Source: Lachnospiraceae bacterium (lineage in GTDB: Bacteria > Bacillota > Clostridia > Lachnospirales > Lachnospiraceae). From it: 64,000 nucleotides of DNA. The notes below the pieces were generated by a model, which was not told where the DNA came from, made no database searches, and saw nothing but the letters and a program-made list of their open reading frames with translations. Where the stretch lies: positions 124,001 to 188,000 of the forward strand of contig JAGAJL010000012.1 of NCBI GenBank assembly GCA_017626095.1, in the 5' to 3' direction. Position numbers and translations under genes: made by a program. Positions 1 to 64,000 of this stretch are shown in pieces. Each line of letters begins with the position of its first letter. Position 1 is the first letter of the stretch.

Positions 1-383
1 CTGTAAAAATTACAGAAGGACGAAGCAGAAATGCCGGTGTAACAGCATTTGTCGGTAGATTGTATACAGAGTGTCTTGGCAGAAGCTATGATGAAGGTGG
101 TCTGAACAACTGGTGTAATATTATTTGTGATAAAAAGTGGAGTGTCAATAAAGTTTCTACAGATGGTTTCTTCTTCTCCGAAGAATTTTTGGAGAAAAAT
201 ACGAGCAATGAAGAATATGTCAGAATCTTGTATGCAACCTTCCTTGGAAGAGAACCTGATAAAACCGGTTACGATATGTGGGTAGGTATTTTAAACAGAG
301 GTGAAAAATCCAGAAAAGAAGTACTGTATGGTTTTTCCAATTCAGACGAGTTTGGTAAAATAAAAGCTTCGTTTGGATTATAA
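1..383 (+). CDS. 3' end of a secreted DUF4214-repeat protein (partial)
   Basis: The reading frame is open from the window edge (first full codon at base 3) to TAA at 381-383, so the 5' end lies outside. The visible part holds two DUF4214-type repeats, starting FVGRLYTECLGRSYDEGGLNNW and YVRILYATFLGREPDKTGYDMW, each followed by a GFxxSxEF motif. It closely resembles the repeats of the proteins at 14017 and 62757, including the linker that begins with VKITEGR. By analogy it is probably the C-terminal surface-attachment part of an exported protein; its front domain cannot be seen. A hairpin with a T-rich tail follows 23 bases later, so the gene probably ends a transcript. DUF4214 has no settled function. 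Confidence 0.85.
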   Translation, partial: VKITEGRSRNAGVTAFVGRLYTECLGRSYDEGGLNNWCNIICDKKWSVNKVSTDGFFFSEEFLEKNTSNEEYVRILYATFLGREPDKTGYDMWVGILNRGEKSRKEVLYGFSNSDEFGKIKASFGL

Positions 384-405
384 AATTGAATCATGTGACA
401 GTGTT

Positions 406-446
406 AATCCATCCTTTGCAATATGCAGAGGATGGATTATTATTTT
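406..446 (+). terminator. Rho-independent terminator after the first DUF4214 gene
   Basis: Perfect 10-bp inverted repeat AATCCATCCT (406-415) and AGGATGGATT (429-438) with a 13-base loop, followed by the T-rich run ATTATTTTT. It starts 23 bases after the stop codon of the partial DUF4214 gene. Confidence 0.75.
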
Positions 447-456
447 TCTGGCCTGC

Positions 457-537
457 GACAATTCAACCTTATCCTACATTGCGACAATCCAAACTTGTCC
501 CACAATTGACAATTCCTTTCACCTGGCAATCGACAAT
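457..537 (+). repeat. Four degenerate GACAAT repeats at 24-26 base spacing
   Basis: GACAAT occurs at 457, 483, 508 and 532, usually as CGACAATTCC or CGACAATCC. The spacing steps are 26, 25 and 24 bases. The stretch has no convincing gene, although two short overlapping ORFs cross it. It lies between the terminator at 406 and the candidate promoter at 572, so it could be a binding array or simply a decayed tandem repeat. Confidence 0.5.
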
Positions 538-571
538 TCCCTGCTTCCAGCCACTACACGCCCCGCAATCG

Positions 572-642: not shown

Positions 643-2001
643 ATGAGAGAACAATATAAACATTTATTAAATTTTTGTGCTAACTTTGTGATGCTGGCTT
701 TTCAGGGGGCTCTTTTTGCATTTATCTGGTACAGATATTATGCAACAGGAGGGTATTTATTTTATCGAAGAGGTCATTGGGCTGCCATTGGTATATATAT
801 GCTAATCGTTTTCTTTTTTACCAGGACATTCAACGGCTACAAGATAGGATATCTTCGGATTATGGATATCTGCCTTTCGCATATTCTGGCGATTTTGTTA
901 GGCGGCTTTGTTGGATATGTGGAAGTGTGTCTGATTAAAAGAGATTATGTGAGTCCGATTCCGATTTTGGTAATAAGTGTCATTGAGATTATTTTTGCCA
1001 TGTTTTGGGTTTATCAGGTTCGCCATCTTTATACTATTTTGTATCCGCCAAGGGATGTAATTTTTATCTACGGTGAATACGAACCGACAGATCTGATTCA
1101 AAAGTTTGGAAGCAGAGAAGACAAATACCACATTTGTGAAACCATCAGCTACAAGACTGATGAGGACAAGCTTTATGCGGAAATTGAACAATATCAGGCA
1201 GTTATGCTTTGCGATTTGCCTGCGGCTGAACGAAATAAAATATTGAAGTACTGTTATCGTAATAATATCCGGGTTTATGTGACACCAAAGATATCGGATA
1301 TTATTATGAATGGTGCAGATAATATTTTCCTGTTTGATACTCCTCTTTTGCTTTGCCGTAATCGGGGACTTTCCATCGAACAGCGCTTTTTAAAGCGTGT
1401 CATGGATATTATCATTTCACTTCTGGGAACGATTATTGCATCGCCATTTATGTTAATAATTGCAATTGCAATCAAACTATATGATGGCGGTCCCGTTTTA
1501 TATAAGCAGGAGCGTATTACCAGAGATGGCAAACCCTTTATGATTTACAAGTTTCGCAGTATGAGTACAGATTCAGAAGTCAAGGGCGCAAGACTTGCCA
1601 TGAAAAATGATAAGCGCGTTACACCGGTAGGAAAGATTATCCGCAACATTCATTTTGATGAGCTTCCTCAGCTTTTCAATATTTTAAAAGGTGAGATGTC
1701 AGTTGTTGGTCCTAGACCGGAACGCAAGGTAATTATGGATGAATATCAAAAAGAGCTGCCGGAATTTGATTTTCGAACCAAAGTCAAGGCCGGACTCACA
1801 GGATATGCACAGGTGTTTGGCAAATACAATACATCTCCATATGACAAGCTAAAGTTTGACATGCAGTATATTGAGAATTATTCGCTGGGATTAGATATTA
1901 AAATATTGATTTTGACTTTTAAGATTCTATTTCAGAAAGAAAATACAGAAGGTGTTGATGAAAGTCAGACGACAGCATTAAAAAACAATAATGAAAAGTA
2001 A
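643..2001 (+). CDS. Undecaprenyl-phosphate sugar-1-phosphate transferase (WcaJ/WbaP type)
   Basis: A 452-residue priming enzyme that would load the first sugar phosphate onto undecaprenyl phosphate at the inner face of the membrane. Residues 1-135 hold several hydrophobic helices. A soluble middle region follows, and from about residue 250 comes the bacterial sugar-transferase domain with its membrane helix (MDIIISLLG), the KFRSM motif (303-307), the DELPQ acidic pair (D339, E340) and GPRPE. The overall plan matches the long polyisoprenyl-phosphate hexose-1-phosphate transferases. It is the first gene of the glycosyltransferase run after the candidate promoter. A second enzyme of the same superfamily is at 53782. 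The sugar it transfers cannot be read from sequence. Confidence 0.92.
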   Translation: MREQYKHLLNFCANFVMLAFQGALFAFIWYRYYATGGYLFYRRGHWAAIGIYMLIVFFFTRTFNGYKIGYLRIMDICLSHILAILLGGFVGYVEVCLIKRDYVSPIPILVISVIEIIFAMFWVYQVRHLYTILYPPRDVIFIYGEYEPTDLIQKFGSREDKYHICETISYKTDEDKLYAEIEQYQAVMLCDLPAAERNKILKYCYRNNIRVYVTPKISDIIMNGADNIFLFDTPLLLCRNRGLSIEQRFLKRVMDIIISLLGTIIASPFMLIIAIAIKLYDGGPVLYKQERITRDGKPFMIYKFRSMSTDSEVKGARLAMKNDKRVTPVGKIIRNIHFDELPQLFNILKGEMSVVGPRPERKVIMDEYQKELPEFDFRTKVKAGLTGYAQVFGKYNTSPYDKLKFDMQYIENYSLGLDIKILILTFKILFQKENTEGVDESQTTALKNNNEK

Positions 2002-2060
2002 TGATGATAAGCATTAATGAAGAATATTGATGAAAAACATTAGCAGATGGGATATAGACC

Positions 2061-2819
2061 ATGATGAAAGAAATGGTAACGGTAATTATACCGGTATATA
2101 ATGCAGAGAAATATCTGGAACGAACGATTAAAAGTGTTTTGGCACAGACATATACCCGGTGGGAACTATTATTGGTAGATGATTGTTCAACAGATCACAG
2201 CAAAGAAATCATGCAAAGGTATACAGAGGAATATCACAATATCAGATGTTTTTATTGCGAGAAAAATGCGGGACCATCTCAAGCACGCAATTTGGGTATC
2301 GATAATGCACAGGGACAGTATATTGCATTTGTTGATTCGGATGATATATGGGTGCCGGAGAAATTGGAAAAACAAATAGCATTTCTTAAGAATAAAAATT
2401 GTGCTTTTACCTTTACATCATATGAATTTGCAGATGAAAACGCCATAAAAACGGGGATTGTGGCTCATGCGCCATCTGAGGTGTGTTACAAGGATTTGTT
2501 GAAAAGTTCCACAATTGCACCCAGCACCACCTTATTTGACAGAGAAAAGATAGAGGATCATCTGATTAAAATGCCACTTGGAGTATCCAGAGAAGATGCG
2601 GCGACTTGGATGAAGATTACCCGAAACGGATACAAAGCATACGGATTGGACGAAATTCTTACGATTTACTGCCGCCATAAGGGCGCTTATTCCGGTAACA
2701 AGATAAAAGCGATTATAGGAAAATGGCAGCTATATCATGACGTTGAACATTTTTCTGTATTAAAAAGCGCCTATTATGTGGTGGTGAATACCTGGGCTGC
2801 AGTGGTACGTCGTTTATAA
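2061..2819 (+). CDS. GT2-family glycosyltransferase
   Basis: A 252-residue cytoplasmic GT-A-fold enzyme. It opens with the standard GT2 start VTVIIPVYNAEKYLERTI, then VDDCSTD, NAGPSQARN and the metal/nucleotide-binding DSDD. The C-terminal part is short, and the last residues are hydrophobic and basic, which suggests peripheral membrane contact. There is a tandem ATG at 2061 and 2064; no strong ribosome site distinguishes them. It sits 59 bases after the priming transferase in a spacer that holds repeated GATGAA and CATTA words. It probably adds the second or a later sugar to the lipid-linked unit; donor and acceptor are unknown. Confidence 0.9.
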   Translation: MMKEMVTVIIPVYNAEKYLERTIKSVLAQTYTRWELLLVDDCSTDHSKEIMQRYTEEYHNIRCFYCEKNAGPSQARNLGIDNAQGQYIAFVDSDDIWVPEKLEKQIAFLKNKNCAFTFTSYEFADENAIKTGIVAHAPSEVCYKDLLKSSTIAPSTTLFDREKIEDHLIKMPLGVSREDAATWMKITRNGYKAYGLDEILTIYCRHKGAYSGNKIKAIIGKWQLYHDVEHFSVLKSAYYVVVNTWAAVVRRL

Positions 2820-2912
2820 AACAAAGAACCGACAATATTAATCAATAATTGAGCGAAATAAAAGAAATATTGACTATATTTATGAAATATAAAGCCAAAA
2901 CCGGAGAATGAT

Positions 2913-4115
2913 ATGAGACTAATGGTAGATGTCCGTACCATGGCAAGCCAGCCAAGTGGAGTGGGCATGTATGTGTATAATTTCATCAAAGAAGTACAGA
3001 AATGTTCCGATGTAGAACTCATCCTGATTTCCGATGTAGATGAAAGCTGTCAAATGCAGGAAATGAAACGCTCTGATGCGCGGATCATATTGTATGGAAA
3101 GCGTATATTCCGTAGCAAGGAAGTGTTTCGGTATTTTTCTTTTGTAAAAAAAGAAGTTTTAAGAGAGCAACCGGATTTGTTTTGGGAACCCAACAATCTT
3201 CTGCCGACGAATTTAAAAGGATTTAAAGGTAAGGTTATGCTAACTTTGCACGATGTCTTTCCCATTACGCATGCAAAGTATTTTAACCGCCTGTATCCGT
3301 TATATTTCCGCATTTTTTTGAAGTATTCCATCAGAAACAGTGATGTTTTGCTTTTTAACTCCGAGGAAACTCGAAAGAATGTTGAAAAATATGTGCCACT
3401 CGCAAAGGAAAAAGAAACATTTTTAACTTATGTTATTGTTCCTGATGGAACCACAGAAACTGTAAAAGACGATAAAACAGCTGATATTGTAGTAGATGAT
3501 AAAACGACAAATACTGCATCAGACAATAAAACGACAGATACTCTATCAGATAGTAAAATAGCAGAAAATAACGATTACTTTTTCTATATTGGTAATCTGG
3601 AAGGTAGAAAAGGCGTTGACCGGTTGTTAAAAGCCTATCAGCAATATTTTCTGCAAGGTGGAAAGAGAAAACTATATTTGGCCGGCGGAATTAAGGATGA
3701 CTATATCAGAGACTTAATTGTGCAAGTACAAAAAACAGTTGGGACCAATCTGATTTCGCTTGGTTATGTCGAGCAAGAGAAAAAAAAGCGTCTGATAAGG
3801 CAGGGAGGATGTTTTTTATTTCCTTCCAGAGCTGAGGGGTTTGGAATACCATTAATTGAGGTCATGCAGTTCAAAGTGCCGATTATCGCCAGTGATATGA
3901 GTATTTTTCGGGAGATTATCGGAGATTGTATCTATTATTATCAACAAGGCGCCGATGAAAAGGAAGAAATTGCAAATCTTGCAAAAGCTCTACAGCTTTT
4001 TGATAAAGGATGTATCAGGATTGATGAGCAACGCTATGAAAATGTGGTCGAAAAGTATTCGCCCGAAGTGCTTGGCAAAGCATTTATTCAATTTTTGAAT
4101 GTTTTCAATGAATGA
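2913..4115 (+). CDS. GT4-family glycosyltransferase with a repeat-filled linker
   Basis: A 400-residue GT-B-fold enzyme. The N-terminal domain starts MRLMVDVRTM with the glycine-rich SGVGMY loop; the C-terminal donor domain has YIGNLEGRKGVDRLL and the EGFGIPLIE (EX7E) motif. A GGAG ribosome site lies just before the ATG. Between the two domains (residues 178-221) is an unusual run of nine-residue repeats rich in Asp, Lys and Thr, where related enzymes have only a short linker. The catalytic motifs on both sides are intact, so the protein is probably still active. It belongs to the polysaccharide run between 643 and 9602. Confidence 0.9.
   Translation: MRLMVDVRTMASQPSGVGMYVYNFIKEVQKCSDVELILISDVDESCQMQEMKRSDARIILYGKRIFRSKEVFRYFSFVKKEVLREQPDLFWEPNNLLPTNLKGFKGKVMLTLHDVFPITHAKYFNRLYPLYFRIFLKYSIRNSDVLLFNSEETRKNVEKYVPLAKEKETFLTYVIVPDGTTETVKDDKTADIVVDDKTTNTASDNKTTDTLSDSKIAENNDYFFYIGNLEGRKGVDRLLKAYQQYFLQGGKRKLYLAGGIKDDYIRDLIVQVQKTVGTNLISLGYVEQEKKKRLIRQGGCFLFPSRAEGFGIPLIEVMQFKVPIIASDMSIFREIIGDCIYYYQQGADEKEEIANLAKALQLFDKGCIRIDEQRYENVVEKYSPEVLGKAFIQFLNVFNE
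3444..3575 (+). repeat. 27-bp tandem repeat inside a glycosyltransferase gene
   Basis: Four full 27-base units and a final 24-base unit, in frame, encode DGTTETVKD, DKTADIVVD, DKTTNTASD, NKTTDTLSD and SKIAENND. The copies differ by several bases, so this is not a very recent expansion. The length is a multiple of three, so unit gain or loss would keep the enzyme in frame. Confidence 0.8.
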
Positions 4116-4248
4116 TAAATAATGACCGAAAGAAATAAAAATGAGCAAACAGCAGATAAATGAAAGAACGAATATCAGAGCAAATAAAAGAGCTGATAAA
4201 ATACAAAAAAATGTAAACAAATAAAATATTAATTGTTAGGAGAAAACC

Positions 4249-5508
4249 ATGTCAGGAATGGTTTTTTGGCTGTCGGAGAAGTTGAGACCGGTTTTATTAA
4301 AAGTCTTCCCACAGACATTTTTGAAAAAAATAAAAAACAGGCTGGTAACCCGAAAAGCTGCACAGCTGAAAAAAGAAGGAATACAGCCATTTGATCAGGA
4401 TGCTTATGAGAAAGGCATCAATCTTGTTGGAGGAATCCGGACACAAAACGGACTGGGACAGAGCTGCCGGCTTGTGGCAGACATATTGGAACATACGGGA
4501 TGGGATTATACCATTTATGATTTTAGTGCCATCAAAAATATTCATAGAAATGATCACAGTTATGATGCAAAGGTTTCTAACACCTTGCCATACGGTATTA
4601 ATCTTTTGCATCTCAATCCATTTGAACTTCAGATGGCCCATCTGGAATTGGGAAATGAATTGTTAAATGGTCATTACAATATTGGGTATTGGTTGTACGA
4701 AATTGAAAAAATTCCGAACGACTGGATTCCCGGAATAGATCTTGTAGATGAAATATGGACACCTTCGGAATATATCAGTAACTGTTTTCGCAAGCTGACT
4801 GATAAACCGGTTTATACCAAAACTTATTGTGTGACAGCTCCGATTGACAAAACATATGACAGAGAATATTTTGGATTGCCAAGGAATCAGTTTTTGTACT
4901 TAATTATGTATGATTCCAACAGTACTTCTTCGCGAAAAAATCCGATGGGGGCCATAAAGGCTTTTAAAAAGGCGTATCCAAGTGAAGAAGAAAAAATCGG
5001 TCTGGTTATTAAGATCAACAATGGATCCAAAGAAGATGTTGCTTATCTAAAGCATGAGCTCAAAGGCTATGACAACATTCATTTTATTACCCGTATCATG
5101 GACAAGATAGAGGTCAATAGTCTGATTGCAGATGTTGATGTATTTGTATCTTTGCATAGGGCAGAAGGGTTTGGTCTGGTTATGGCGGAGGCAATGTTAA
5201 ATCAAACTGCCTGTGTTGCGACGAATTATTCCTCAAACACCGAATTTATGGATTCTGAATCTGCTTGCATGGTAGATTATCAACTGGTTGATCTGACAGG
5301 AGATACCGGTTTTTATCCCAAAGGAAGTAAATGGGCCGAGCCGGACTATGAACAGGCTGCCATGTATATGAGAAAACTATATGAAGATCCGGATTATTAC
5401 GATCAAATCGTTAAAAATGGTAAAGAAAAGATAGAGTATAAGATGCAGATGCAAAAGGTAAGTGCGGATTTTACTGACAGATTGGAGAGTATTTATGCAG
5501 CAGATTGA
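4249..5508 (+). CDS. GT4-family glycosyltransferase
   Basis: A 419-residue enzyme with a clear AGGAG site before ATG 4249. The first 50 residues are basic and partly hydrophobic (KLRPVLLKVFPQTFLKKIKNRL), suggesting membrane association. The body has the glycine-rich acceptor-side loop GGIRTQNGLGQSC, and the donor domain carries the EGFGLVMAE (EX7E) motif of GT4 retaining transferases. Its last 14 bases overlap the start of the small coiled-coil gene at 5495, so the two are probably translationally coupled. The spacer before it (4116-4248) is A-rich and repetitive, with no gene. Confidence 0.9.
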   Translation: MSGMVFWLSEKLRPVLLKVFPQTFLKKIKNRLVTRKAAQLKKEGIQPFDQDAYEKGINLVGGIRTQNGLGQSCRLVADILEHTGWDYTIYDFSAIKNIHRNDHSYDAKVSNTLPYGINLLHLNPFELQMAHLELGNELLNGHYNIGYWLYEIEKIPNDWIPGIDLVDEIWTPSEYISNCFRKLTDKPVYTKTYCVTAPIDKTYDREYFGLPRNQFLYLIMYDSNSTSSRKNPMGAIKAFKKAYPSEEEKIGLVIKINNGSKEDVAYLKHELKGYDNIHFITRIMDKIEVNSLIADVDVFVSLHRAEGFGLVMAEAMLNQTACVATNYSSNTEFMDSESACMVDYQLVDLTGDTGFYPKGSKWAEPDYEQAAMYMRKLYEDPDYYDQIVKNGKEKIEYKMQMQKVSADFTDRLESIYAAD

Positions 5509-5914
5509 TGTTGAACAGATTATGAGTGAAATCAGAGAAGAAATAAAAGAAAAGGGAATTTGTGAGGAGCCCATTCCGTTTCGGGATCCCTATGAAGAGG
5601 AATTGCCCTTTTCCATTCCGCAGCAATTCAGTAAAGAAGAATTATACAACGAGACAATTAATGCTATGGCATTGTATGATACTGCGATTCAGCCGATTAC
5701 GCAGGCGTCCGGTATTAAAGGACTGATCAAAAGAATACTCAATAAAATGGCGTTCTATTCCATGAATACACATATGATCAGTCAAAATACATTTAATATA
5801 GCGGTTGTCAATGCATTGCTGGAAGTCAATGCGTTAGCAGATGAAAACCGGAAGCTTGCCCAAAAAGTCGAAGAATTACAGGACGAAATAGAAATGCTAA
5901 AAAAGAAAATGTGA
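5495..5914 (+). CDS. Small helical coiled-coil protein paired with a GT4
   Basis: 139 residues. I start it at ATG 5495 because GGAGAG lies 5 bases upstream and because its paralogue at 18685 also starts with MQ-I. The N-terminus (MQQIDVEQIMSEIREEIKEKG) is a charged helix. A middle basic amphipathic segment, GIKGLIKRILNKMAF, matches GVKGLIRKLI in the paralogue, and the last 40 residues are a heptad-rich coiled coil (ENRKLAQKVEELQDEIEMLKKKM). Similar segments occur as N-terminal extensions on methyltransferases and glycosyltransferases of surface-glycan loci (family knowledge, recalled). It has no visible catalytic motif. A scaffold or membrane tether for the GT4 at 6028 is the simplest guess. 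Confidence 0.8.
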   Translation: MQQIDVEQIMSEIREEIKEKGICEEPIPFRDPYEEELPFSIPQQFSKEELYNETINAMALYDTAIQPITQASGIKGLIKRILNKMAFYSMNTHMISQNTFNIAVVNALLEVNALADENRKLAQKVEELQDEIEMLKKKM

Positions 5915-6027
5915 AAATAGAAAGACAGAAATAAAAAACGGAAACAGAAATACTGAAACAAAATCAGAAAAACAGAAACAGAACAACAAAAACAACAACA
6001 AAACAATCATAAAGCAGGACAGATAAC

Positions 6028-7110
6028 GTGAAAAGAAGAATAATCAGTATGCTGGCTGTGCTCTCGAAAGGAGATGCTGTCAGTAATGATGCGGTAGCAA
6101 TTCACAGACTATTAGAAGATGCCGGATATGAAACTGTTTTTTGCTCAGAGCGGGCTTATTATGAACCGACAGGGATAAAAGTCGTATCGGCCGCAGACCT
6201 AAGTTTTATATGTGAGAGCGATGTGGTTCTTTACCATCTTTCAACCGGTACGGATTTGAATTATCGTTTTGGCAGATTGAAATGCAAAAAAATAATCCGA
6301 TATCATAATATTACGCCACCCTTTTATTTTCAAAATTATACAACGTTAAAAGTGGCCAGTTCCATGGATGGATTATATGGTGCAAAATTTCTGGCAGATA
6401 AAGCTGACTACTGTATTTGTGTTTCGGATTACAATCGTCAGGATTTAGTCAGAATGAATTACCGGTGTCCGATGGATGTGATGCCGATTTTAATTGCATT
6501 TGATGACTATCAAAAGAAACCGGATGAAAAGGTTTTAAATGATATGAAAAATACGACAGATATCATTTTTACAGGGAGAATTGCACCCAATAAGCGTCAT
6601 GAAGATGTGATACAGGCATTTTATTACTATCAGAAATATTACAATGCAGATGCAAGATTGCATCTTGTTGGTAATCCGCTCGGAATGGAGCCATATTATC
6701 AAAAGTTGTTGGAATATGTAAAAAGGCTTGGGGTGAAAAACGTCCATTTCACAGGACATATTCCTTTTACGGAGATGTTGGCATACTATGCGGGAGCAAA
6801 TCTTTTGTTATGTATGAGTGACCATGAAGGATTTTGCGTTCCTTTGGTGGAAGCAATGTATTTTTCTGTTCCTATCTTAGCCAAGGATGCGGCGGCAGTT
6901 GGGGAGACGCTTGGCGGAAGCGGTATCTTATTAAAAGATAATAATCCATTAGAGGCAGCTGCGCTTATGAATCGTGTTTTGCAAGATGATAGTCTGAGAA
7001 ATACAATTATTCAAGAACAGCATGCGCGCCTGTCGGACTTTTCATCACAAAAGGTTCAAAAGCAGTGTCTGGAATTAATGGAAAAATTTCTCAGTCAACA
7101 AAAGCTGTAA
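6028..7110 (+). CDS. GT4-family glycosyltransferase (GDAVxND subfamily, copy 1)
   Basis: A 360-residue GT-B enzyme with a GTG start at 6028, supported because the paralogues at 15572 and 19134 begin at the same position relative to the KGDAVSND motif. Conserved blocks shared by all three copies are YHLSTGTDLNYRFGRLKCK, YHNITPP, the donor-side FTGRIAPNKRHEDVI, and DHEGFCVPLVEAM with the EX7E acids. It follows the small coiled-coil protein after a 113-base, T-poor, A-rich spacer of GAAACAGAAA-like words. It probably adds a sugar during assembly of the polymer handled by the ABC exporter at 16668; the specificity is unknown. Confidence 0.9.
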   Translation: MKRRIISMLAVLSKGDAVSNDAVAIHRLLEDAGYETVFCSERAYYEPTGIKVVSAADLSFICESDVVLYHLSTGTDLNYRFGRLKCKKIIRYHNITPPFYFQNYTTLKVASSMDGLYGAKFLADKADYCICVSDYNRQDLVRMNYRCPMDVMPILIAFDDYQKKPDEKVLNDMKNTTDIIFTGRIAPNKRHEDVIQAFYYYQKYYNADARLHLVGNPLGMEPYYQKLLEYVKRLGVKNVHFTGHIPFTEMLAYYAGANLLLCMSDHEGFCVPLVEAMYFSVPILAKDAAAVGETLGGSGILLKDNNPLEAAALMNRVLQDDSLRNTIIQEQHARLSDFSSQKVQKQCLELMEKFLSQQKL

Positions 7111-7153
7111 TTTATTGTAAAATATTTATTAGAAAAGAAATCAGATACAGATT

Positions 7154-8341
7154 ATGAAAAAAATTGGATTGGTTTGCCCCTGGTATGGAGAAAAAATTAC
7201 CGGAGGTGCAGAGGCAAATTTAAGAGGAATTGCGCACAATATGCAAAAGCGCGGAATAGAAGTTGAAGTGTTGACCACCTGTGTAAAGGATGCCAATTCA
7301 GACTTCAATGCCAATGTGCATCCACAAGGGTGTTCTGTAGAAGCCGGGATAACGGTACGACGTTTTCCATCAGATGTAAGTGATCTGGGTGCTTTTGTCT
7401 ATGTCAATCATAAGCTGTGTGGTGGACAAAAGGTTATCTCCTATGATGAAGAAAAGACTTTTGTAGAACAAAATATCAATAGTAAAGAACTATACAGATA
7501 TATCAGAGAACATGAAAAAGAGTATAGCGCGTTTTTATTTTCGCCCTATTTGTTTGGGACGACTTATTTTGGTGCACAGCAGGTTTTAAAGAAAGCAATA
7601 TTAATTCCGTGTTTTCATGATGAACCCTATGTATATCTGCGCAATTTCAGGAGAGTCTACAGTAAAGTTGCAGGAATGGCTTTTAATGCACAACCGGAGC
7701 AGTGGATTGCAGAGAAACTATATGATTTGCGCAATGTACATACGATGGTAACAGGTTGTGGTCTGGATACAAATCTACAATATGATGCACGGCGCTTTCG
7801 TACGAAATATCAGATAAATGATCCGTTTATTTTATATGCAGGGCGTAAAAATGCAGGAAAGAATGTCGATACACTGTTACATTATTTTTCGATTTATAAG
7901 AGAAAGGATACAAGGAAGCTCAAACTCGTATTGATTGGCGGTGGACAGATTGCCATTCCGCCGGAGATAAAAGATGATGTGATAGATTTGGGATTTGTAC
8001 CAATTCAGGATAAATATGATGCTTATGGGGCGGCAGAGTTATTGTGTCAGCCCAGTAAACATGAGAGTTTTTCGCTGGTCATCATGGAAAGCTGGTTATG
8101 TGACAGACCGGTACTGGTAAGCGGCGATTGTGCGGTGACCAAAAATTTTGCAGTGCAATCAGGCGGCGGACTATATTTTACCAATTATGGTGAGTTTGCG
8201 GGTGCATTGGATTATTATAAAGATCATCCTGATATGTCTGAAAAAATGGCTGCTGCCGGAAAGGCGTATGTAAAAGAAAATTTTGACTGGGACAGAGTGA
8301 TCGAGAAATATGTTACTCTAATTGAGGAAATTTCCGAATAA
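7154..8341 (+). CDS. GT4-family glycosyltransferase (tandem pair, first)
   Basis: 395 residues. It starts MKKIGLVCPWYGEKITGG, the usual GT4 acceptor-domain beginning, and has AGRKNAGKNVDTLL at the start of the donor domain, GFVPIQDKYDAY and PSKHESFSLVIME, which gives the EX7E pair. It is clearly homologous along its length to the next gene: both share GGxExxxxxxA, LTTC(V/A)KD, PCFHDEPYV/PTAHDEPFL and SGGGLYF/SGGGFYY blocks. They probably act in succession on the same polymer (inference). The ribosome site is weak. Confidence 0.9.
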   Translation: MKKIGLVCPWYGEKITGGAEANLRGIAHNMQKRGIEVEVLTTCVKDANSDFNANVHPQGCSVEAGITVRRFPSDVSDLGAFVYVNHKLCGGQKVISYDEEKTFVEQNINSKELYRYIREHEKEYSAFLFSPYLFGTTYFGAQQVLKKAILIPCFHDEPYVYLRNFRRVYSKVAGMAFNAQPEQWIAEKLYDLRNVHTMVTGCGLDTNLQYDARRFRTKYQINDPFILYAGRKNAGKNVDTLLHYFSIYKRKDTRKLKLVLIGGGQIAIPPEIKDDVIDLGFVPIQDKYDAYGAAELLCQPSKHESFSLVIMESWLCDRPVLVSGDCAVTKNFAVQSGGGLYFTNYGEFAGALDYYKDHPDMSEKMAAAGKAYVKENFDWDRVIEKYVTLIEEISE

Positions 8342-8350
8342 TGCATGATG

Positions 8351-8406
8351 GTATTGTTCGCAGTATTGTATTAATAGAGCAAAGTATTGCAAGAAGTATT
8401 GTATTG
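8351..8406 (+). repeat. GTATTG-rich repetitive spacer
   Basis: GTATTG occurs five times (8351, 8363, 8384, 8396, 8401) in a 79-base spacer between two glycosyltransferase genes. It looks like a slippage-generated filler rather than a known element. Confidence 0.55.
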
Positions 8407-8420
8407 AAAGAAGAAGTTAT

Positions 8421-9602
8421 ATGAAAAAAAGAAAAGTGGCTGTTGTTAATCAAAGATATGGTCTTGAGGTAAATGGCGGTTCAGAATATCATGCTATGAT
8501 TTTAGCACAACACCTGGCCGATTTTTGTGATGTAGAGATTATTACAACCTGTGCAAAAGATTACGATACATGGGAAAACTACTATGAGCCGGGAGAAGAT
8601 GTGGTAAATGGAATTAAAGTACACCGTTTTCCGGTTTTGAAGCAAAGAGAACAGAAACGTTTTCAAAAATGCGAGAAAATGCGGGTATATCTGCCGCATT
8701 TAACATATCGGATGGAGCAGAAATGGATTGATGAACAGGGACCGTATGCACCGGATGCGATTACCTATATCAGAGAGCATGCTGAGGAATATGACGTTTT
8801 TATCTTTGTGACATATCTTTATTATCTGACGGTTATGGGATTAAAAGAGGTTGCACAAAAGAGCATATTGATTCCGACAGCACATGATGAACCGTTTCTG
8901 AAAATGAAGCACTATAAGGAATTGTTTCAAGCGCCCAGAGGATATTTTTTTAATACAATCGAAGAACGGGATATGATATACCGGAAGTTTCATACAGAGC
9001 ATATCCCAAATGAGATTGGCGGTGTCGGCATTGAAGTGCCTGCAAATACAAATCCGGAAGGATTTAAGGAAAAATATCATTTGAAGGAATATATGATTTA
9101 TGTCGGAAGAATTGATTATGGCAAAAACTGTCATGTGTTGTTTGATTATTTTTCACGATATAAAGATAAACATCCGGGAGATCTTAAGCTTGTTTTGATG
9201 GGCAAAGAGATGATGGATGTTCCCGTGCGTGATGATATTCTGTCACTGGGATTTGTCAGTGAAGAAGAAAAATATGATGGTATGTCCGGAGCAGACTTTC
9301 TGATATTACCTTCCGAATTTGAAAGTATGTCCATTGTTGTATTGGATTCGCTTAAACTTGGTGTTCCGGTTTTGGTAAACGGAAAATGCACTGTGCTTAA
9401 GGCACACTGTGATAAGAGTGGTGGTGGTTTTTACTACTCAGACTATCAAGGTTTTGAAGAAGGAATTGATAAGCTTTTGGAATCGGCTCAAAAGCGCAAA
9501 GACATGGGAATGTCCGGAAAAACCTACGTCGATGAGTATTATCAGTGGGATGCAATCATGAAACGATTGCTAGGACTAATGAATCGTATTTTGGATACGT
9601 AA
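8421..9602 (+). CDS. GT4-family glycosyltransferase (tandem pair, second)
   Basis: 393 residues, paralogous to the gene at 7154. The start KVAVVNQRYGLEVNGGSEYH, the donor-domain opening YVGRIDYGKNCHVLF, GFVSEEEKYDGM and PSEFESMSIVVLDSL are visible. In the EX7E motif the second acid is Asp (ESMSIVVLD) rather than Glu, a conservative but notable change from its neighbour. It is the last enzyme of the first glycosyltransferase run; after it the locus switches to secreted proteins. Donor and acceptor are unknown. Confidence 0.9.
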   Translation: MKKRKVAVVNQRYGLEVNGGSEYHAMILAQHLADFCDVEIITTCAKDYDTWENYYEPGEDVVNGIKVHRFPVLKQREQKRFQKCEKMRVYLPHLTYRMEQKWIDEQGPYAPDAITYIREHAEEYDVFIFVTYLYYLTVMGLKEVAQKSILIPTAHDEPFLKMKHYKELFQAPRGYFFNTIEERDMIYRKFHTEHIPNEIGGVGIEVPANTNPEGFKEKYHLKEYMIYVGRIDYGKNCHVLFDYFSRYKDKHPGDLKLVLMGKEMMDVPVRDDILSLGFVSEEEKYDGMSGADFLILPSEFESMSIVVLDSLKLGVPVLVNGKCTVLKAHCDKSGGGFYYSDYQGFEEGIDKLLESAQKRKDMGMSGKTYVDEYYQWDAIMKRLLGLMNRILDT

Positions 9603-9648
9603 TGATTTGGAAACATTGTACATCTTGGAAAAAAGAGGAGTATACATT

Positions 9649-11841
9649 ATGAGAAAAAAAGGTTTTTTGGCTTTATTACTGGCAATGGCAATGTTTGTGG
9701 AATTGCCCTTGACTGCGGGAGCAACTACATTATCCCAAAATGATATAACAGCAAACAACTATGAAGCAAACAACAGAGAAAATAATGAAAAAGCGATAAA
9801 TCAGGAAGAAGAAAAAGCAGAAGTAAAAGCAGCGCTTTCGGATATTCTTTCTAAAAAAGATGTTTATGTTCTCTTGTATAATGCAGATGAATATGCATTG
9901 AGAAGTGCACCGGATGAAGAAGCCGAAAAAGGACAGAGTTTTCCCTGCGGTTCTCAGATGAGACTTTTGGATGTCGCATTCTCAGATGATGGAAATGTGT
10001 ATTTTATGGTAGAAGCGCATTTGTATGATGTTGCTTATACCGGATATGTCGAACAATCCTTCATTGTTACGCAGGATCCAGATTTTGTATCATGGAAGGA
10101 TGAAGAGCTTTCCAAGGTGGCAGGATGTCAACTGTTATTGGAAATCAGTAAAGAAGATTCCATCAAAGCAACCTTCCCCAGTGGATATTGGGATTATCTC
10201 ATTGCACTGAACAACAGACATTCAAACTGGACTTTCGTGCCCTATAATACCGGTCTTGATTGGAACACGGTATTAAATGAGGAACACGTTGGAGATCGGA
10301 GTCTGGTATATAAGACTGCCGATGACAGCTGGAAATCCAAAGAGGCAGGAGACTATGATCCGGTGACCGGTACTTATATCGGGAAAAGCGGTTCCAACTG
10401 GTACAGAGCTTCTTTAGAAGGAATTGCATATTGCATGAACCCATTGAATTATCTGAATGATAAAAATATCTTTGCCTTTGAGCAGTTGACATTCAATGGA
10501 GAATTGCAAAAGGTAGAAGGTGTGAAAGCCATCATTTCCAATACCTGGATGAAAGATAAGGCTTTAGAAGACGGATCCGGTGGTTTATATGCGGACGTAT
10601 TTATGGATGTCGGAAGACAGACAGGTGTTAGTCCTTACCATCTGGCCAGCAGGGTTGTGCAGGAGCAGGGAATCATGGGACAGGCACCGCTTATTTCCGG
10701 ATATGGCGGTGTTTATAACTATTTTAATGTGAAAGCAAGTGGAGGTACAGAAGAGGCAATATTGGCTACGGGAACTGCCTATGCACAGAGTCAGGGATGG
10801 ACTACCCGATATCTGTCGATTTTAGGTGGTGCGGAGAGATTAGGTGAAAGCTATATTACCAAAGGACAGGATAGCCTGTATGTACAAAAATATGATGTCG
10901 ACAGTTCCTATTATGGATTATACAGCCATCAGTATATGCAAAATATTCAGGCACCTATGACGGAGAGTACAAAAGTATATAGTGCATATAATAGCGTTGG
11001 TGCACTCGACAGTTCTTTTGTCTTTAAAATTCCGGTTTTTGACAATATGCCGGGAATTGGTGATAAACCACTTGGCGAAGCAACGGTTGATAAAGCAACA
11101 GCAGAAAGCTTCGTAAGACGTTTATACAAGGTTGTTTTGGATCGTGATGCTGATGAAAAAGGTTTAAATGACTGGATTAATGCGCTGACAAAAAAAGGAA
11201 AATGTGCAGGAGACTTGATTTATGGATTTTTCTATAGTGAAGAGATGTTAAACAAGAACTTAAGCGACTCGGAATTTTTAGACTATGCTTATCGCGCTAT
11301 TCTTGGCAGAGAAGCGGATGAACAGGGAAAAAATAACTGGCTTAAGGAAATGGAACTTGGGGCAACACGCGGAAGCATCATTAACGGATTTATCGGTTCA
11401 GATGAATTTACTTCCATGTGTAAGCAATATGGTATCAAAAGAGGCGATTTACCGCATTTGGAGCCTGCTGATAAAAATATAAAAAGAACGCAGTTTGTAG
11501 TACGTCTTTACCGGAATATTTTGGGAAGGGATGCAGATAAAATTGGGTTGAATACCTGGACAAAGGATTTGGCCAACGGAAAATCTGCCTGTAGTGTCAT
11601 TGAGGGATTTTTCTACAGTGAAGAATTCCAGAATGAGGGTTACAGTCCGGAAGAATTTGTTGAAATCCTGTACCAGACTATTCTGGGAAGAGGAAGTGAT
11701 CCTGCCGGAAAGGCCGACTGGGTAAAACAAATCAAATCAGGTGCAAGCAAAAGAGATATTCTTGCCGGATTTGTGTATTCGAATGAATTTGCCAAACTCT
11801 GTAAAGAATATGGCATAAAAGTAGGAGAGTTGTCACGATGA
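9649..11841 (+). CDS. Secreted GH73-type glucosaminidase with DUF4214 repeats
   Basis: 730 residues, started at ATG 9649 because AGAGGAG precedes it and the protein then begins with a clean signal peptide (MRKKGFLALLLAMAMF ... AGA). After a Glu/Asn-rich linker comes an SH3-like segment (about 60-140), then an endo-beta-N-acetylglucosaminidase domain (about 150-455) with the proposed catalytic E339 in SRVVQEQGIMG and the downstream YGGVYNYFNV block, as in LytD/GH73 family enzymes. It should cut peptidoglycan glycan strands outside the cell. The C-terminus has four DUF4214-type repeats (FVRRLYKVVLDRDADEKGLNDW and so on), presumably for surface retention. Its stop overlaps the next start (ATGA), so it is co-translated with the protease at 11838. 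Confidence 0.88.
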   Translation: MRKKGFLALLLAMAMFVELPLTAGATTLSQNDITANNYEANNRENNEKAINQEEEKAEVKAALSDILSKKDVYVLLYNADEYALRSAPDEEAEKGQSFPCGSQMRLLDVAFSDDGNVYFMVEAHLYDVAYTGYVEQSFIVTQDPDFVSWKDEELSKVAGCQLLLEISKEDSIKATFPSGYWDYLIALNNRHSNWTFVPYNTGLDWNTVLNEEHVGDRSLVYKTADDSWKSKEAGDYDPVTGTYIGKSGSNWYRASLEGIAYCMNPLNYLNDKNIFAFEQLTFNGELQKVEGVKAIISNTWMKDKALEDGSGGLYADVFMDVGRQTGVSPYHLASRVVQEQGIMGQAPLISGYGGVYNYFNVKASGGTEEAILATGTAYAQSQGWTTRYLSILGGAERLGESYITKGQDSLYVQKYDVDSSYYGLYSHQYMQNIQAPMTESTKVYSAYNSVGALDSSFVFKIPVFDNMPGIGDKPLGEATVDKATAESFVRRLYKVVLDRDADEKGLNDWINALTKKGKCAGDLIYGFFYSEEMLNKNLSDSEFLDYAYRAILGREADEQGKNNWLKEMELGATRGSIINGFIGSDEFTSMCKQYGIKRGDLPHLEPADKNIKRTQFVVRLYRNILGRDADKIGLNTWTKDLANGKSACSVIEGFFYSEEFQNEGYSPEEFVEILYQTILGRGSDPAGKADWVKQIKSGASKRDILAGFVYSNEFAKLCKEYGIKVGELSR

Positions 11842-13916: not shown

Positions 13917-13917
13917 G

Positions 13918-13995
13918 AGAAAATAGAATTTAGAGAAAATAGAATTTAGGGAAAATATAAAAAAGAACAATATAAAACAAAGGGAAAATATAAAA
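13918..13995 (+). repeat. Tandem and spaced short repeats between two DUF4214 genes
   Basis: AGAAAATAGAATTTAG occurs as two exact tandem copies (13918-13933, 13934-13949). GGGAAAATATAAAA occurs at 13949-13962 and again at 13982-13995. The 100-base spacer has no gene; a strong AAGGAG site for the next gene ends it. Confidence 0.7.
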
Positions 13996-14016
13996 TAAAG
14001 AAAAAGGAGAAGACGT

Positions 14017-15498: not shown

Positions 15499-15513
15499 TG
15501 AATAAATGAAAAC

Positions 15514-15556
15514 CGGTCACAATATGTTTTGATATCAATGGAACATATTGTGACCG
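15514..15556 (+). promoter_or_regulatory. Perfect 15-bp inverted repeat between DUF4214 gene and GT4
   Basis: CGGTCACAATATGTT (15514-15528) and its exact complement (15542-15556) flank a 13-base loop. No T-run follows on the + strand. It lies 15 bases after a stop codon and 15 bases before the next ATG, so it could be a factor-independent or processed RNA 3' end, or an operator for a dimeric regulator. Confidence 0.65.
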
Positions 15557-15571
15557 ATAAAAGGTAACAAT

Positions 15572-60966: not shown

Positions 60967-60972
60967 TATAAT
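60944..60972 (+). promoter_or_regulatory. Possible internal promoter at the end of the 58876 gene
   Basis: TTGCAA (60944-60949), 17-base spacer, perfect TATAAT (60967-60972). A start near 60979 would leave almost no leader before ATG 60982. Chance occurrence in AT-rich DNA is possible. Confidence 0.35.
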
Positions 60973-60981
60973 GTGAGTGGT

Positions 60982-62682
60982 ATGGAAAAGAAGAAGATTG
61001 ACAGGGATTTTATAAAAAAAATATTACCAATTACTGTTTTACTTTTTTGCGAATACTTTTTCTTTCGCAACATTTTGACAACGGATTTGCTGTTTGGAGA
61101 TGATGGGGACGGAAAATTATGTACTTTGATTACGGAGCATTGGTATCAGGTATTAAAGGGTCAAAAAAGTTTTGACACGCTTGGAATCTTTTATCCGCTT
61201 CAGGGAACCATTGCCTATTCTGATATGATGCTGGGATATGCTCCTATATACTGTGTTTTACGTGCACTTCATTTTAATATGTTCTTTTCTTTTAAATGGA
61301 CTTTGATTTTATATCATGTATTTGGTGCACTGACCATGTATGGTATGCTGCATCGCGGTCTGAAGGTTCGGAGAGAATGGGCTGTGATAGGGACGATTTC
61401 TTTTAGCATTTCGAGTGGTTATGCCATGATGCTGTTGCATACCCAGCTTGTGATTATTTCACTTGTACCACTGATGCTGTGGTTTATGATTGGATTTGTA
61501 GATGCACTTTATAAGGGAAATCGGCTGAGAAAAAATATATGTGCTCTGGCAGCTGTTTTTATGATGGGCGTATTGATGTATACAGGCTGGTATGTCGCAT
61601 TTTTTGCCATTCTGTTTACTTTGTTTTTTGTCATCTGTTATTGTGCGGTTTCGCTGTGCGGCAAAAAGGGTGTCTTTATAAATCAGGTGAAAGATTTTTT
61701 TTATAAAATTGGTTGGGACATCCTTTTGTATATCGTTTTTGCCCTTTTGATTATCGTGCCGTTTCTGATGCTTTATATTCCGGTCCTGAATCTGAATGGC
61801 GGCAGGGTTTATGAGGGGATTACATGTTTTATTCCACAGTTTGTTGATCTGATTAACGTAACACCCTACAATCTCTGCATGGGATGGATATTTAATGCAT
61901 TGCATTTGGGAGATCGTTCACTGACAAGTGAGGTATGGCAGGGGTATTCACTGATTACATGGTTATTGTTTCTTGTATTGTCAATATGTGGGTTGCAAAA
62001 GCTGCAAAAGAAAAGTGAAGTCCGGATTCTATCTTTTTCCGTACTTTTGGCAGTGCTGTTTAGTATCATATTTACCGTTCAGATTGGTGAAGAAGGTTTT
62101 TCTTTGTGGTACTGGATTTATAAATTGATTCCGGGTGCCACATCTATTCGTGCGGTGGGACGGTATCTGTTCTTTTTGTTGGTACCGGTATCGATTCTGA
62201 TTGCGGTATTTGGAAGCAGATGCAGCGATGCATGGATGGCTAAGATGACAGAAAAATATAGAGATCATAAGGTTGTTATAGCCGGATACGGGATTGCTGT
62301 TTTAGTGCTGTTTACCCTGGTATTTACAGGAAGTATTATGCAGGATGGCGTGATGGCAAGATGGTCCGAGGCAGATGAACTGCAGGTTTTAAGCGAAGTG
62401 CCGCCACCACCGTCGGATTGTGAATCCTTCTTTGTCATGGATAATGGTCAGGCGGAGTATAGTAGGTCTTATTACAATCTGCAGGCCATGGCAATTGCCG
62501 CAAAGTATTCTTTGGGTACGCTGAATGGTTATACCGGTGTTTTCCCGGATGGAAGCGATGGTTTGGTCAATATTTTTGCAGATGATTATCTGGGGAACGT
62601 GAGCAGATGGATCCGTAAAATGGAAATAAAAAATGTTTACGCATACAATCTGACCACACATGTCTGGACAAAAGTATATTAA
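60982..62682 (+). CDS. YfhO/GT-C-like polytopic membrane protein
   Basis: 566 residues from ATG 60982; a GTG at 60973 is in frame but would lie upstream of the predicted transcription start. About 11 helices. The first outer loop has LLFGDDGDGKLCTLITEHWYQVL (acidic pair), and further on MYTGWYVAFFA and GATSIRAVGRYLFFLLVP resemble YfhO-like proteins implicated in glycosylating surface polymers. The C-terminal 130 residues are soluble and outside. Probably modifies the polysaccharide with lipid-linked sugars (inference). Confidence 0.7.
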   Translation: MEKKKIDRDFIKKILPITVLLFCEYFFFRNILTTDLLFGDDGDGKLCTLITEHWYQVLKGQKSFDTLGIFYPLQGTIAYSDMMLGYAPIYCVLRALHFNMFFSFKWTLILYHVFGALTMYGMLHRGLKVRREWAVIGTISFSISSGYAMMLLHTQLVIISLVPLMLWFMIGFVDALYKGNRLRKNICALAAVFMMGVLMYTGWYVAFFAILFTLFFVICYCAVSLCGKKGVFINQVKDFFYKIGWDILLYIVFALLIIVPFLMLYIPVLNLNGGRVYEGITCFIPQFVDLINVTPYNLCMGWIFNALHLGDRSLTSEVWQGYSLITWLLFLVLSICGLQKLQKKSEVRILSFSVLLAVLFSIIFTVQIGEEGFSLWYWIYKLIPGATSIRAVGRYLFFLLVPVSILIAVFGSRCSDAWMAKMTEKYRDHKVVIAGYGIAVLVLFTLVFTGSIMQDGVMARWSEADELQVLSEVPPPPSDCESFFVMDNGQAEYSRSYYNLQAMAIAAKYSLGTLNGYTGVFPDGSDGLVNIFADDYLGNVSRWIRKMEIKNVYAYNLTTHVWTKVY

Positions 62683-62756
62683 TGGTTCGTTTGATTGTAT
62701 CTTAGAATGTATATTCATAGGATATTGTGAGATTAATAAGGAGGATGAAAGTAGTA

Positions 62757-64000
62757 TGAAGAAAAAGTTGCTGGCTGCTTTGGCAGTAGGAATTGGTTTG
62801 GTGTGCGGGATGGTTTCCGTGCCCGCAAGCGCAGAGGAGATAACAGAGGATGGTTATGTCATCGTCTCGCCGGAAGAATTGGATGAAGGCCTGGTATCAG
62901 GCAATGAGATTTTAGAGACGGAAAGCACAAAGCTTACGAAAGAGGAAACATTTTTTTCAGTAAGAGATATTCGTGCTGTTGGAAACCGTCGTGATTTTGA
63001 TGTGACCAACGGCAAACAGAAAATTGTTCTTTATGGTGGAATTCCCAGTTGTACCTACACCACAAAAACGATGCAGAATCTGTATTCGATTTATCAATAT
63101 CTGGATCCGCAAAAGGTAGAATTTTTCTGTTTTGATATGGGTAGTAATTGCACGCTCAACGTTCAGCAATATTTAGAACAGGCAGGGATGTCAACAGATG
63201 TCTTTGTGGGTTCCCGCAATGAAATAGATGGCGCATATAATATGTTTTTCAAAATTTTCAGTGCAGGAAAGAGCATGGGTGTGATTGATCCGGATACTTC
63301 TTCCTATCGGATGCCGCTGATTGCTTATATCGACGGACAGGGTAATATTCTTAGTGTTACAACGGACTCTCAGTCCTTGGAGAGTTTGTTGGATAAAGTG
63401 TCAGCCTGTGATATGCGATTGATCGGTACTCCCAGAAATGGTGTGAAGAATGCGACAATTGAAGCAAGATTTTCTCATATCAGAGTACAGAATTTTGTAA
63501 ATCGTCTTTACAATATTGCTTTAGAGCGTGGCGCAGAGGAAGCCGGATTAAATAACTGGGTACAACAGTTAGAAAGTGGAAAAGCCAACGGTGCCAATGT
63601 AGCCTATGGATTTTTCTTTAGTGAAGAGTATAAGGAAAAGAATGTATCCAATTCGATTTTTGTTGAGACGCTTTACATGGTCATGATGGACAGACCGTCG
63701 GATGCTACAGGAAAGAAGACCTGGGTTGATTTGCTTGATAACGGTATTTCCAGAGAATATGTATTCAAAGGTTTTTCCGAATCCGAAGAATTTACAAAGA
63801 TTTGTGAAAGCTATGGTATCAATAGGGGAAGTGTCAAGCTGACTCAGGGCAGAGACCGCAATGAAGGTGCAACTCGTTTTGTGGCAAGATTGTATCGCAA
63901 TGTTTTGGGACGTGAATATGATGTGCCGGGTCTGAATACATGGTGTAATACTATTTGTGATAAGAAGCAAAGTGTTGAGTATGTTTCTACCGTGGGCTTT
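62757..64000 (+). CDS. Secreted thioredoxin-like protein with DUF4214 repeats (3' cut)
   Basis: The frame is open to the window end (414 codons seen). GGAGG precedes ATG 62757. A signal peptide (MKKKLLAALAVGIGLVCGM ... ASA) is followed by an acidic linker and a domain (about 80-230) with a thioredoxin-like order: KIVLYGGIPSCTYTTKTMQNL, VEFFCFDMGSN, and MPLIAYIDGQGNI with the cis-Pro-like MP. Only one Cys stands in the usual CxxC place, so redox activity is doubtful. From about residue 245 there are at least three DUF4214-type repeats; the linker KLTQGRDRNEGATRFVARLY matches the protein at 14017. The end lies outside the window. Confidence 0.8.

Follow-up and report, generated by a model that had tools for sequence, protein, structure and literature searches.

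A four-repeat DUF4214 module as a candidate surface-attachment module for the polymer of one Wzm/Wzt cassette in Lachnospiraceae

Analysis of a 64,000-nt stretch of Lachnospiraceae DNA (the window) led us to propose, with a probability of about 0.6, that the four-repeat DUF4214 module (PF13946) is a non-covalent surface-attachment module binding the polymer of a particular "type A" Wzm/Wzt system, whose conserved cassette occupies window positions 643–20201. Module architecture, signal-like protein starts, co-occurrence and linkage with this cassette, and DUF4214 on cassette proteins lacking a signal-like start were all read from sequences; from these we infer the polymer as ligand and the consequent retention on the cell. 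Co-occurrence with the genes of one polymer, together with attachment of the module to an enzyme of the same cluster, suggests that DUF4214 may hold proteins on the cell via that polymer. A preliminary description of the window had regarded the repeat as a docking module for the glycan made by the surrounding genes. That proposal is narrowed here to one Wzm/Wzt system (16668–18673), co-occurring and linked with DUF4214 in several genera, and is extended to cassette proteins without a signal-like start; its picture of a self-contained locus did not hold, and a glycan made by the variable central genes became an unlikely target.

The five exported DUF4214-repeat proteins originally described in the window were confirmed, all scoring far above the PF13946 cut-off. 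They comprised the C-terminal part of an exported DUF5722 + DUF4214 protein (1–383, +; gene start at C18:122185, upstream of the window), an exported GH73-like glucosaminidase (9607–11841, +; C-terminal module at about 11077–11817), an exported S8 protease (11838–13916, +; module at about 13185–13913), an exported protein at 14017–15498 (+; module at about 14752–15495) and another at 62660–64000 (+), which carries the module C-terminally and continues to C18:188210, just beyond the window. Position 383 is a true protein end (+), whereas 9649, 11838, 14017 and 62757, earlier listed as ends, fall on gene starts or close to them. The C-terminal module consisted of four repeats over ~245 aa in these five proteins and in one just upstream, an amidase + DUF4214 protein (L031:15836-18043) ending ~2 kb before the window. 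Pfam E-values for the 9607, 11838, 14017 and 62660 proteins ranged from 7.5e-34 to 5.5e-58. Eight pieces scanned scored 116–197 bits (cut-off 23.2 bits) and the truncated DUF5722 piece 90 bits, each of seven complete proteins had four DUF4214 matches, and the Pfam scan gave no DUF4214 match in an LRR piece that is a separate part of a split gene. A whole-genome search found nine DUF4214 proteins, eight with four matches and the DUF5722 protein with three; six of them clustered within 68 kb (C18:119836-188210) and three lay elsewhere. To call the repeats near-identical was too strong, since the ~250-aa modules of the nine proteins shared 37–62% identity; the 11838 and 14017 proteins were almost the same over their final ~55 aa. 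No tRNA and no Rfam family at gathering score was detected in the window.

The front ends of these proteins are varied. The S8 protease domain was confirmed (Pfam E 5.9e-46), and the glucosaminidase assignment of the 9607 protein stood on a PDB sequence search (autolysin E and bifunctional autolysin, E 6e-7 to 8e-7) with no Pfam match. Pfam assigned DUF5722 to the front of the protein ending at 383, while the CHAP/NlpC-like (14017) and thioredoxin-like (62660) labels found no support in Pfam and PDB sequence searches. Among 60 proteins scanned from the wider set (59 of 141 distinct DUF4214 proteins plus one glycosyltransferase fusion; 25 of 51 front-end families listed), the module accompanied unrelated front ends, wall enzymes among them: Amidase_3, YkuD, GH25, VanY, S8 and transglutaminase-like domains. 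Among 113 complete ORFs, near-copies from one genome included, the module was C-terminal in 87, N-terminal in 23 and internal in 3, and a crude rule recognised a signal-like hydrophobic start in 108. DUF4214 is thus a terminal module common to exported proteins with varied fronts, as is characteristic of non-covalent wall modules such as SLH (PF00395), choline-binding (PF01473) and ChW (PF07538) repeats. None of the 141 proteins combined an LPXTG-like motif with a hydrophobic tail (motif without such a tail in 2), and two window proteins outside that set had no such motif, in agreement with the earlier remark that no sortase motif shows in the visible parts of the five proteins; the covalent-anchor test (LPXTG with tail, C-terminal membrane segment) used pattern and hydropathy rules only. 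A lipobox-like motif was present in 7/141. Profile searches of the window's genome gave one sortase-family match, no SLH match and no choline-binding repeat. A tree of 130 modules showed clustering by genome beyond shuffled expectation (54 changes versus a shuffled mean of 88.6), absent in the window's genus, which we took as duplication within genomes and not as evidence on the ligand.

The type-A cassette opens with an initiating undecaprenyl-phosphate sugar transferase (643–2001, +), identified by NCBIfam EPS_sugtrans (332.5 bits, cut-off 295.6) and by synteny; a DUF4214 gene directly adjoined its homologues in six genomes. Glycosyltransferase genes starting at 2061, 2913, 4249, 6028, 7154 and 8421 follow (2061–9602, +), syntenic across genera and 92–99% identical to those of a sister species. 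Between them lies a small protein with an IDVEQIMSEIR-type start (5462–5914, +), and cassette proteins of similar start in other genomes combine a methyltransferase with a DUF4214 match. Downstream are a GT4-type glycosyltransferase (15572–16642, +; one of three similar paralogues, with 6028 and 19134), the polymer-exporter permease Wzm1 (16668–17444, +), the exporter ATPase Wzt1 (17444–18673, +), a second small protein (18625–19137, +; by synteny) and a further GT4-type enzyme (19134–20201, +), 45% identical to the glycosyltransferase half of a GT-DUF4214 fusion in genome G068. Wzm1 was assigned by synteny, its matches to Wzm/KpsM models being weak and below their cut-offs. Wzt1 has a Wzt_C domain (PF14524) after its ATPase, one of two Wzt_C matches in the genome; this "type A" carbohydrate-binding domain (18191–18670) falls in a clade separate from the Wzt2 type. 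Sugar supply is represented by GDP-mannose 4,6-dehydratase (52598–53647, +; NCBIfam gmd 524 bits, cut-off 415). In the sister species Wzm1 and Wzt1 are 100% and 99% identical and the DUF4214 proteins 93–99% identical, and the serotype-like genes differ: within the sister stretches fetched, no close counterpart was found for either half of a serotype-like cassette, the first (24798–31381, +) with glycosyltransferases and Wzy/Wzx-like genes by eye and the second (36195–46560, +) with choline-type genes and an IS21-like element by eye.

Presence of DUF4214 tracked this Wzt subtype among 299 genomes of the same family. Generic Wzt_C was a weak partner (11/13 versus 169/286, p 0.08), and we therefore searched for the Wzt subtype with the C-terminal domain of Wzt1 as query. 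Of 13 genomes with strong DUF4214 (best E < 1e-18), 10 had type-A Wzt_C, versus 12/286 others (p 1.2e-10), with the threshold put post hoc in an observed gap (51.4 versus 45.5 bits) and the DUF4214-negative G066 just below it. Removal of the window's genus left type A in 8/11 strong genomes (p 1.4e-8), and a second test adding five weak genomes outside the 13 (G016, G024, G112, G239, G252) gave 12/18 versus 10/281 (p 1.2e-11). All 11 multi-copy genomes (at least 15 matches, with at most 18 scored per genome in the family search) had the window's Wzm/Wzt subtype, versus 12/288 others, where G068, which has no Wzt_C match, was counted from its syntenic cassette. Several results weigh against the polymer reading or leave it unaided: 12 type-A genomes of the 299 had no strong DUF4214, and neither G015 nor G294, with just 3 and 2 DUF4214 matches respectively, had a type-A cassette. 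A class-level survey of 311 genomes, some also in the family set, yielded three multi-copy genomes, too few and mixed: the window's genome and G553 (47.8 bits, counted as type A on account of its syntenic cassette) were type A, and G524, a 1.5-Mb single-contig genome from outside the family, gave numerous divergent matches to DUF4214 but none to type-A Wzt. The genomes are related, with DUF4214 amounting to 6 changes on the rpoB tree, and in an independent-pairs test, underpowered with only 4–6 pairs, the association was not significant. Neither sortase (present in 38 of 40 picked genomes) nor SLH (5/13 versus 10/27 in the same 40) differed as partner or opposite of DUF4214. Choline-binding-rich genomes (at least 6 matches, with at most 29 scored per genome) numbered 0/13 among strong-DUF4214 genomes versus 72/286 others (p 0.043), so that an exclusion that had seemed strong in the 40 picked genomes was modest over all 299.

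Physical linkage accompanied co-occurrence. A DUF4214 gene lay in or near the type-A cassette in 10/11 multi-copy genomes, spanning several genera, and any DUF4214 gene was present in 2/20 control windows. Five cassettes further encoded a DUF4214-matching protein with no signal-like start: a 623-aa GT4-DUF4214 fusion in G068, one methyltransferase each in G024 (28.3 bits) and G016 (20.9 bits, under the cut-off), and small proteins in G106 (31.3 bits) and G216 (24.4 bits). Methyltransferases adjoin Wzt1 in several species, as expected for capped polymers. Cassette GH25 enzymes bear DUF4214 in G067 and G289, and near the cassette of the DUF4214-negative G104 lies a GH25 with nine ChW repeats. 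Linkage did not extend to the scattered DUF4214 genes of copy-rich genomes, contrary to the expectation that glycan genes would be enriched around DUF4214 genes in general. Glycan genes, recognised by BLAST against 67 proteins of the window region after removal of Wzt hits of <35% identity, made up 1/261 around 20 sites and 1/349 in 20 controls from five copy-rich genomes, with sites taken one per contig, cassette contigs excluded apart from G106 C11, where some 108 kb separated the site from the cassette, and controls placed at half of the site coordinate except both G106 controls, which were off this rule. Seven further sites, outside the 20, had six glycan-like genes in G068, seven in G289 and none in the other five. 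Because scattered sites were no richer in glycan genes than controls, and with three of the nine proteins of the window's genome encoded elsewhere, the locus cannot be called self-contained.

These scattered genes without glycan neighbours fit, as do the wall enzymes among the many front ends and the possession of DUF4214 without a type-A match by G524, G015 and G294, an alternative in which the module anchors proteins to peptidoglycan or another general wall component and the linkage reflects mere grouping of envelope genes. We judge this alternative unlikely, as it predicts neither that 11 multi-copy genomes should share one uncommon Wzt subtype nor that a cassette glycosyltransferase and methyltransferases should carry DUF4214. 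Rather improbable, in our estimate, is a protein-protein module akin to phycobilisome linkers, whose repeats would attach to one another or to a scaffold protein, forming a surface protein layer outside and an enzyme complex inside the cell. The linker similarity does allow a protein partner: PBS_linker_poly similarity appeared in 8/60 proteins at E ≤ 1e-3, and the glycosyltransferase fusion exceeded the PF00427 cut-off (32.7 versus 28.7 bits), while the similarity in window proteins remained below it (23.3 bits in the 9607 protein). PDB searches gave no significant relative of the module, the sole profile match being a phycobilisome linker at a non-significant E of 1.6. To our knowledge the DUF4214 proteins here have no phycobilisome context, and their cellular place differs from that of the linkers. 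In favour of a protein partner is the reported idea of an S-layer-anchored DUF4214 enzyme in Ca. Dechloromonas occultata (PMC11970703). It is difficult, however, to imagine one protein partner available both inside the cell and at its surface, other than DUF4214 itself. A third alternative, in which DUF4214 recognises the strain-specific glycan encoded by the variable middle (24798–46560), is suggested by location in the same locus but is highly improbable: those genes lack a close counterpart in the sister locus, the DUF4214 proteins of the two species share 93–99% identity, and across genera it is the conserved cassette with which DUF4214 co-occurs.

According to the preferred polymer-binding reading, synthesis of the polymer would begin on undecaprenyl phosphate, and the glycosyltransferases would lengthen the chain in the cytosol. 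In several species methyltransferases probably cap it or otherwise modify it. Before export the polymer would be recognised by the carbohydrate-binding domain of Wzt, and exported wall enzymes and other proteins would bind it through their DUF4214 modules. In some species DUF4214 on cytosolic cassette enzymes would handle the growing polymer, and in copy-rich species the many exported DUF4214 proteins would dock on the finished polymer outside. More tentatively, DUF4214 may be a two-compartment reader of one polymer: in the cytosol it would let glycosyltransferases and cap methyltransferases hold the growing chain ahead of Wzm/Wzt export, and outside, on many exported proteins, it would recognise that chain as a docking address.

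The window proteins are plain members of PF13946, whose Pfam title gives no function; what is added is the tie to a Wzm/Wzt cassette and the occurrence on exported proteins as well as on some that are apparently not exported. Like SLH, choline-binding and ChW modules, DUF4214 forms terminal repeats on numerous exported enzymes, and GH25 enzymes bear DUF4214 in two genomes and ChW repeats in another, yet these belong to different profile families, and DUF4214 is found in addition on apparently non-exported cassette proteins. As in Wzm/Wzt O-antigen exporters with a carbohydrate-binding domain (PMC9445017), Wzt1 has such a domain and methyltransferases stand beside it in several species; unlike them, Wzt1 belongs to a separate clade, in Lachnospiraceae-type bacteria. 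DUF4214 has already been suggested as a surface-anchoring domain of predicted surface proteins in segmented filamentous bacteria (PMC12780176); the passage concerned names no ligand, and a candidate ligand is proposed here.

The question touched, in our judgement, is how gut Clostridia hold surface enzymes without sortase motifs or SLH domains, a question also raised in print for segmented filamentous bacteria. If the two-compartment reading is true, the cassette would produce the cell's glycan as well as its code for docking proteins, and DUF4214 would represent a new family of glycan-binding domains. If the polymer is indeed the ligand, the module would provide a binding probe for an uncharacterised polymer, and a predicted ligand for a domain of unknown function, together with linked loci, makes the retention question directly testable.

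A profile search of the window's genome returned 35 matches to DUF4214 (PF13946) in nine proteins, six of which were clustered within C18:119836-188210, on the contig holding the window. The cluster comprised a protein with an amidase domain (L031:15836-18043), one with DUF5722 ending at window position 383, and four at 9607, 11838, 14017 and 62660; the remaining three lay away from it, at C18:~303k and on contigs C44 and C1. All seven complete proteins scanned carried four matches each, forming a module of ~245 aa, and the nine modules shared 37-62% pairwise identity. Coordinates given as protein ends in the preliminary description were mostly gene starts; the S8 and GH73-like front ends that it named were supported, and the searches run lent none to the CHAP-like and thioredoxin-like ones. 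One LRR and DUF4214 gene (L033:5610-7764) reads as two ORFs and corresponds to one longer ORF in the sister genome (L045:10903-12987).

Among 113 complete DUF4214 ORFs in the collected loci, a count that takes in near-copies, the module sat at the C-terminus in 87, at the N-terminus in 23 and inside the protein in 3; a hydrophobic signal-like stretch, as judged by a crude rule, opened 108 of the 113. None of 141 distinct DUF4214 proteins ended in a hydrophobic stretch or carried an LPXTG motif followed by such a tail; a bare LPXTG-type motif occurred in two and a lipobox-like motif in seven. Pfam scanning of 60 proteins (59 of the 141 plus a glycosyltransferase fusion from genome G068) gave 51 families, and the 25 listed include CAP, Amidase_3, BspA-type LRR, Big_2, transglutaminase-like, YkuD, S8, deacetylase, GH25, VanY and others. 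As read from sequence, this architecture is that of a non-covalent attachment module, and DUF4214 probably attaches proteins to the surface. A report on segmented filamentous bacteria (PMC12780176) already names it a likely surface-anchoring domain; our literature search found the term DUF4214 and did not find PF13946 as a term. Exported proteins with an N-terminal two-repeat DUF4214 were also seen in Actinomycetota metagenome bins (L098-L100, L102), that of L099 having a polysaccharide deacetylase domain.

DUF4214 was detected at E ≤ 1e-3 in 18 of 299 same-family genomes, strongly (best E below 1e-18) in 13. Generic Wzt_C was widespread (180/299). With the C-terminal domain of Wzt1 (17444-18673) as query, 22 of the 299 genomes scored at least 51 bits ("type A"), one scored 45.5 and the rest at most 40. 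Type A was present in 10 of the 13 strong-DUF4214 genomes versus 12 of 286 others (p 1.2e-10), and in 8 of 11 once the window's genus was removed (p 1.4e-8), genomes being treated as independent in both tests. G068 has a syntenic cassette (the conserved Wzm/Wzt polymer genes, 643-20201 in the window), whose ATPase is 65% identical to Wzt1, just 266 aa long and devoid of Wzt_C; counting this genome in, the cassette occurred in 11/11 multi-copy genomes (15 or more DUF4214 matches) versus 12/288. The exceptions lacking type A were G015 (three DUF4214 matches), with a Wzt of the Wzt2 type, and G294 (two matches). Type-A proteins formed a clade separate from the Wzt2 type (27 versus 3 rows of the Wzt tree). 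DUF4214 required six changes when mapped on a 27-genome rpoB tree, and an underpowered independent-pairs test was not significant. One glycan region holds two different Wzm/Wzt exporters (window 16668-18673 and L032:3129-5238), their Wzt proteins falling in separate clades.

The cassette was broadly syntenic between genera, with an initiating transferase, glycosyltransferases, Wzm1, Wzt1, a small protein and GT4-type enzymes. In six genomes (G000, G086, G067, G289, G291, G110) a DUF4214 gene directly adjoined that of the initiating transferase, and in four more (G053, G106, G068, and G169, ~11 kb from Wzt1) one lay at another position within or close to the cassette; the cassette contig of G216, a 14-kb stub, held no exported DUF4214 gene. 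Linkage was therefore found in 10/11 multi-copy genomes, as against any DUF4214 gene in 2/20 control windows (own genus left out, 8/9 linked; binomial p 8e-8 at a 10% base rate). Wzm1/Wzt1-type genes accompanied DUF4214 in 6 of 52 named loci (L055, L056, L059, L060, L075, L095), a non-random sample chosen by similarity to window modules in which L055 (G086) and L095 (G053) had already been counted. In G053, G553 and G534, Wzm1 has genes for a GDP-mannose dehydratase and a reductase-like protein as neighbours, which suggests that the polymer may contain a 6-deoxy-mannose-type sugar; NCBIfam matches of the reductase-like protein were all below cut-off. Choline-binding-rich genomes (at least six PF01473 matches) numbered 0/13 among strong-DUF4214 genomes versus 72/286 others (p 0.043). 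GH25 enzymes gave a single instance of a module swap: in G067 and G289 DUF4214 is attached to the GH25 adjoining the cassette; in the DUF4214-negative G104, a GH25 with nine ChW repeats (L148:175-2670) lies ~6 kb from Wzm1, near a type-A cassette.

Five cassette proteins matching DUF4214 had no signal-like start by the crude rule: a 623-aa G068 protein joining a GT4-type enzyme (45% identical to that at window 19134) to repeats at 375-606, methyltransferases encoded directly after Wzt1 in G024 (one match, 28.3 bits) and G016 (one match, 20.9 bits, below cut-off), and small proteins of G106 (31.3 bits) and G216 (24.4 bits, start unsure). Methyltransferases without DUF4214 adjoin Wzt1 in G067, G169, G283, G164 and G110, and a Wzt carbohydrate-binding domain is described in PMC9445017 as recognising an O antigen's methylated cap. 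The polymer would be the simplest ligand common to these non-signal proteins and the exported ones. In other genomes, relatives of the small cassette proteins at 5462-5914 and 18625-19137 have D-V-E-K-I-M-E-E-I-R as their opening motif. G024, G016 and G339 encode proteins that begin in a similar way and run on into a methyltransferase; such a start is possibly an assembly tag of a cytosolic complex.

The proposal of a self-contained locus of a polymer plus its decorating enzymes was not borne out. The neighbourhoods of 20 DUF4214 sites, taken one to a contig from G067, G110, G169 and G053 and from two contigs of G106, held one glycan-like gene (similar to window-region ones) among 261 other genes, versus 1/349 in 20 control windows; the predicted excess was thus absent at these sites, and the near-equal counts indicate that DUF4214 genes are largely scattered in copy-rich genomes. 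Two of seven further sites had glycan-like neighbours (six genes in G068, seven in G289).

In a class-level survey of 311 genomes, three were multi-copy: the window's, G553 and G524. G553 reached 47.8 bits to the type-A query and has a syntenic cassette, the closest DUF4214 gene seen being ~40 kb off. G524, which we take to be rat SFB, is one contig of 1,515,556 bases with many divergent DUF4214 matches (stretches L271-L274 examined) and nothing that matched the type-A Wzt query; its DUF4214 proteins may use another ligand.

As rivals to the polymer, the ligand could be peptidoglycan, or DUF4214 could be a protein-protein module, a role suggested by its similarity to the phycobilisome linker. 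A serotype-specific glycan is unlikely, since the six clustered DUF4214 proteins are 93-99% identical between the window's genome and the sister species G086 (Wzm1/Wzt1 100/99%, Wzm2/Wzt2 100/99.8%), whereas the stretches of the sister genome that were compared hold no close counterpart of the serotype-like genes of the variable cassette (24798-31381 and 36195-46560). That variable cassette includes, named by eye and likewise without close sister counterparts, choline-type genes (38781-42914; a nucleotidyltransferase-kinase fusion, a second nucleotidyltransferase and a BCCT-family transporter that scored 402 bits, just under the cut-off of 407.6), which suggest a phosphocholine-like decoration in the window's strain, and an IS21-like istA/istB pair (43386-45672). 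The polymer exported by type-A Wzm/Wzt is the best-supported candidate ligand, and we put at roughly 0.6 the probability that DUF4214 proteins attach through it.
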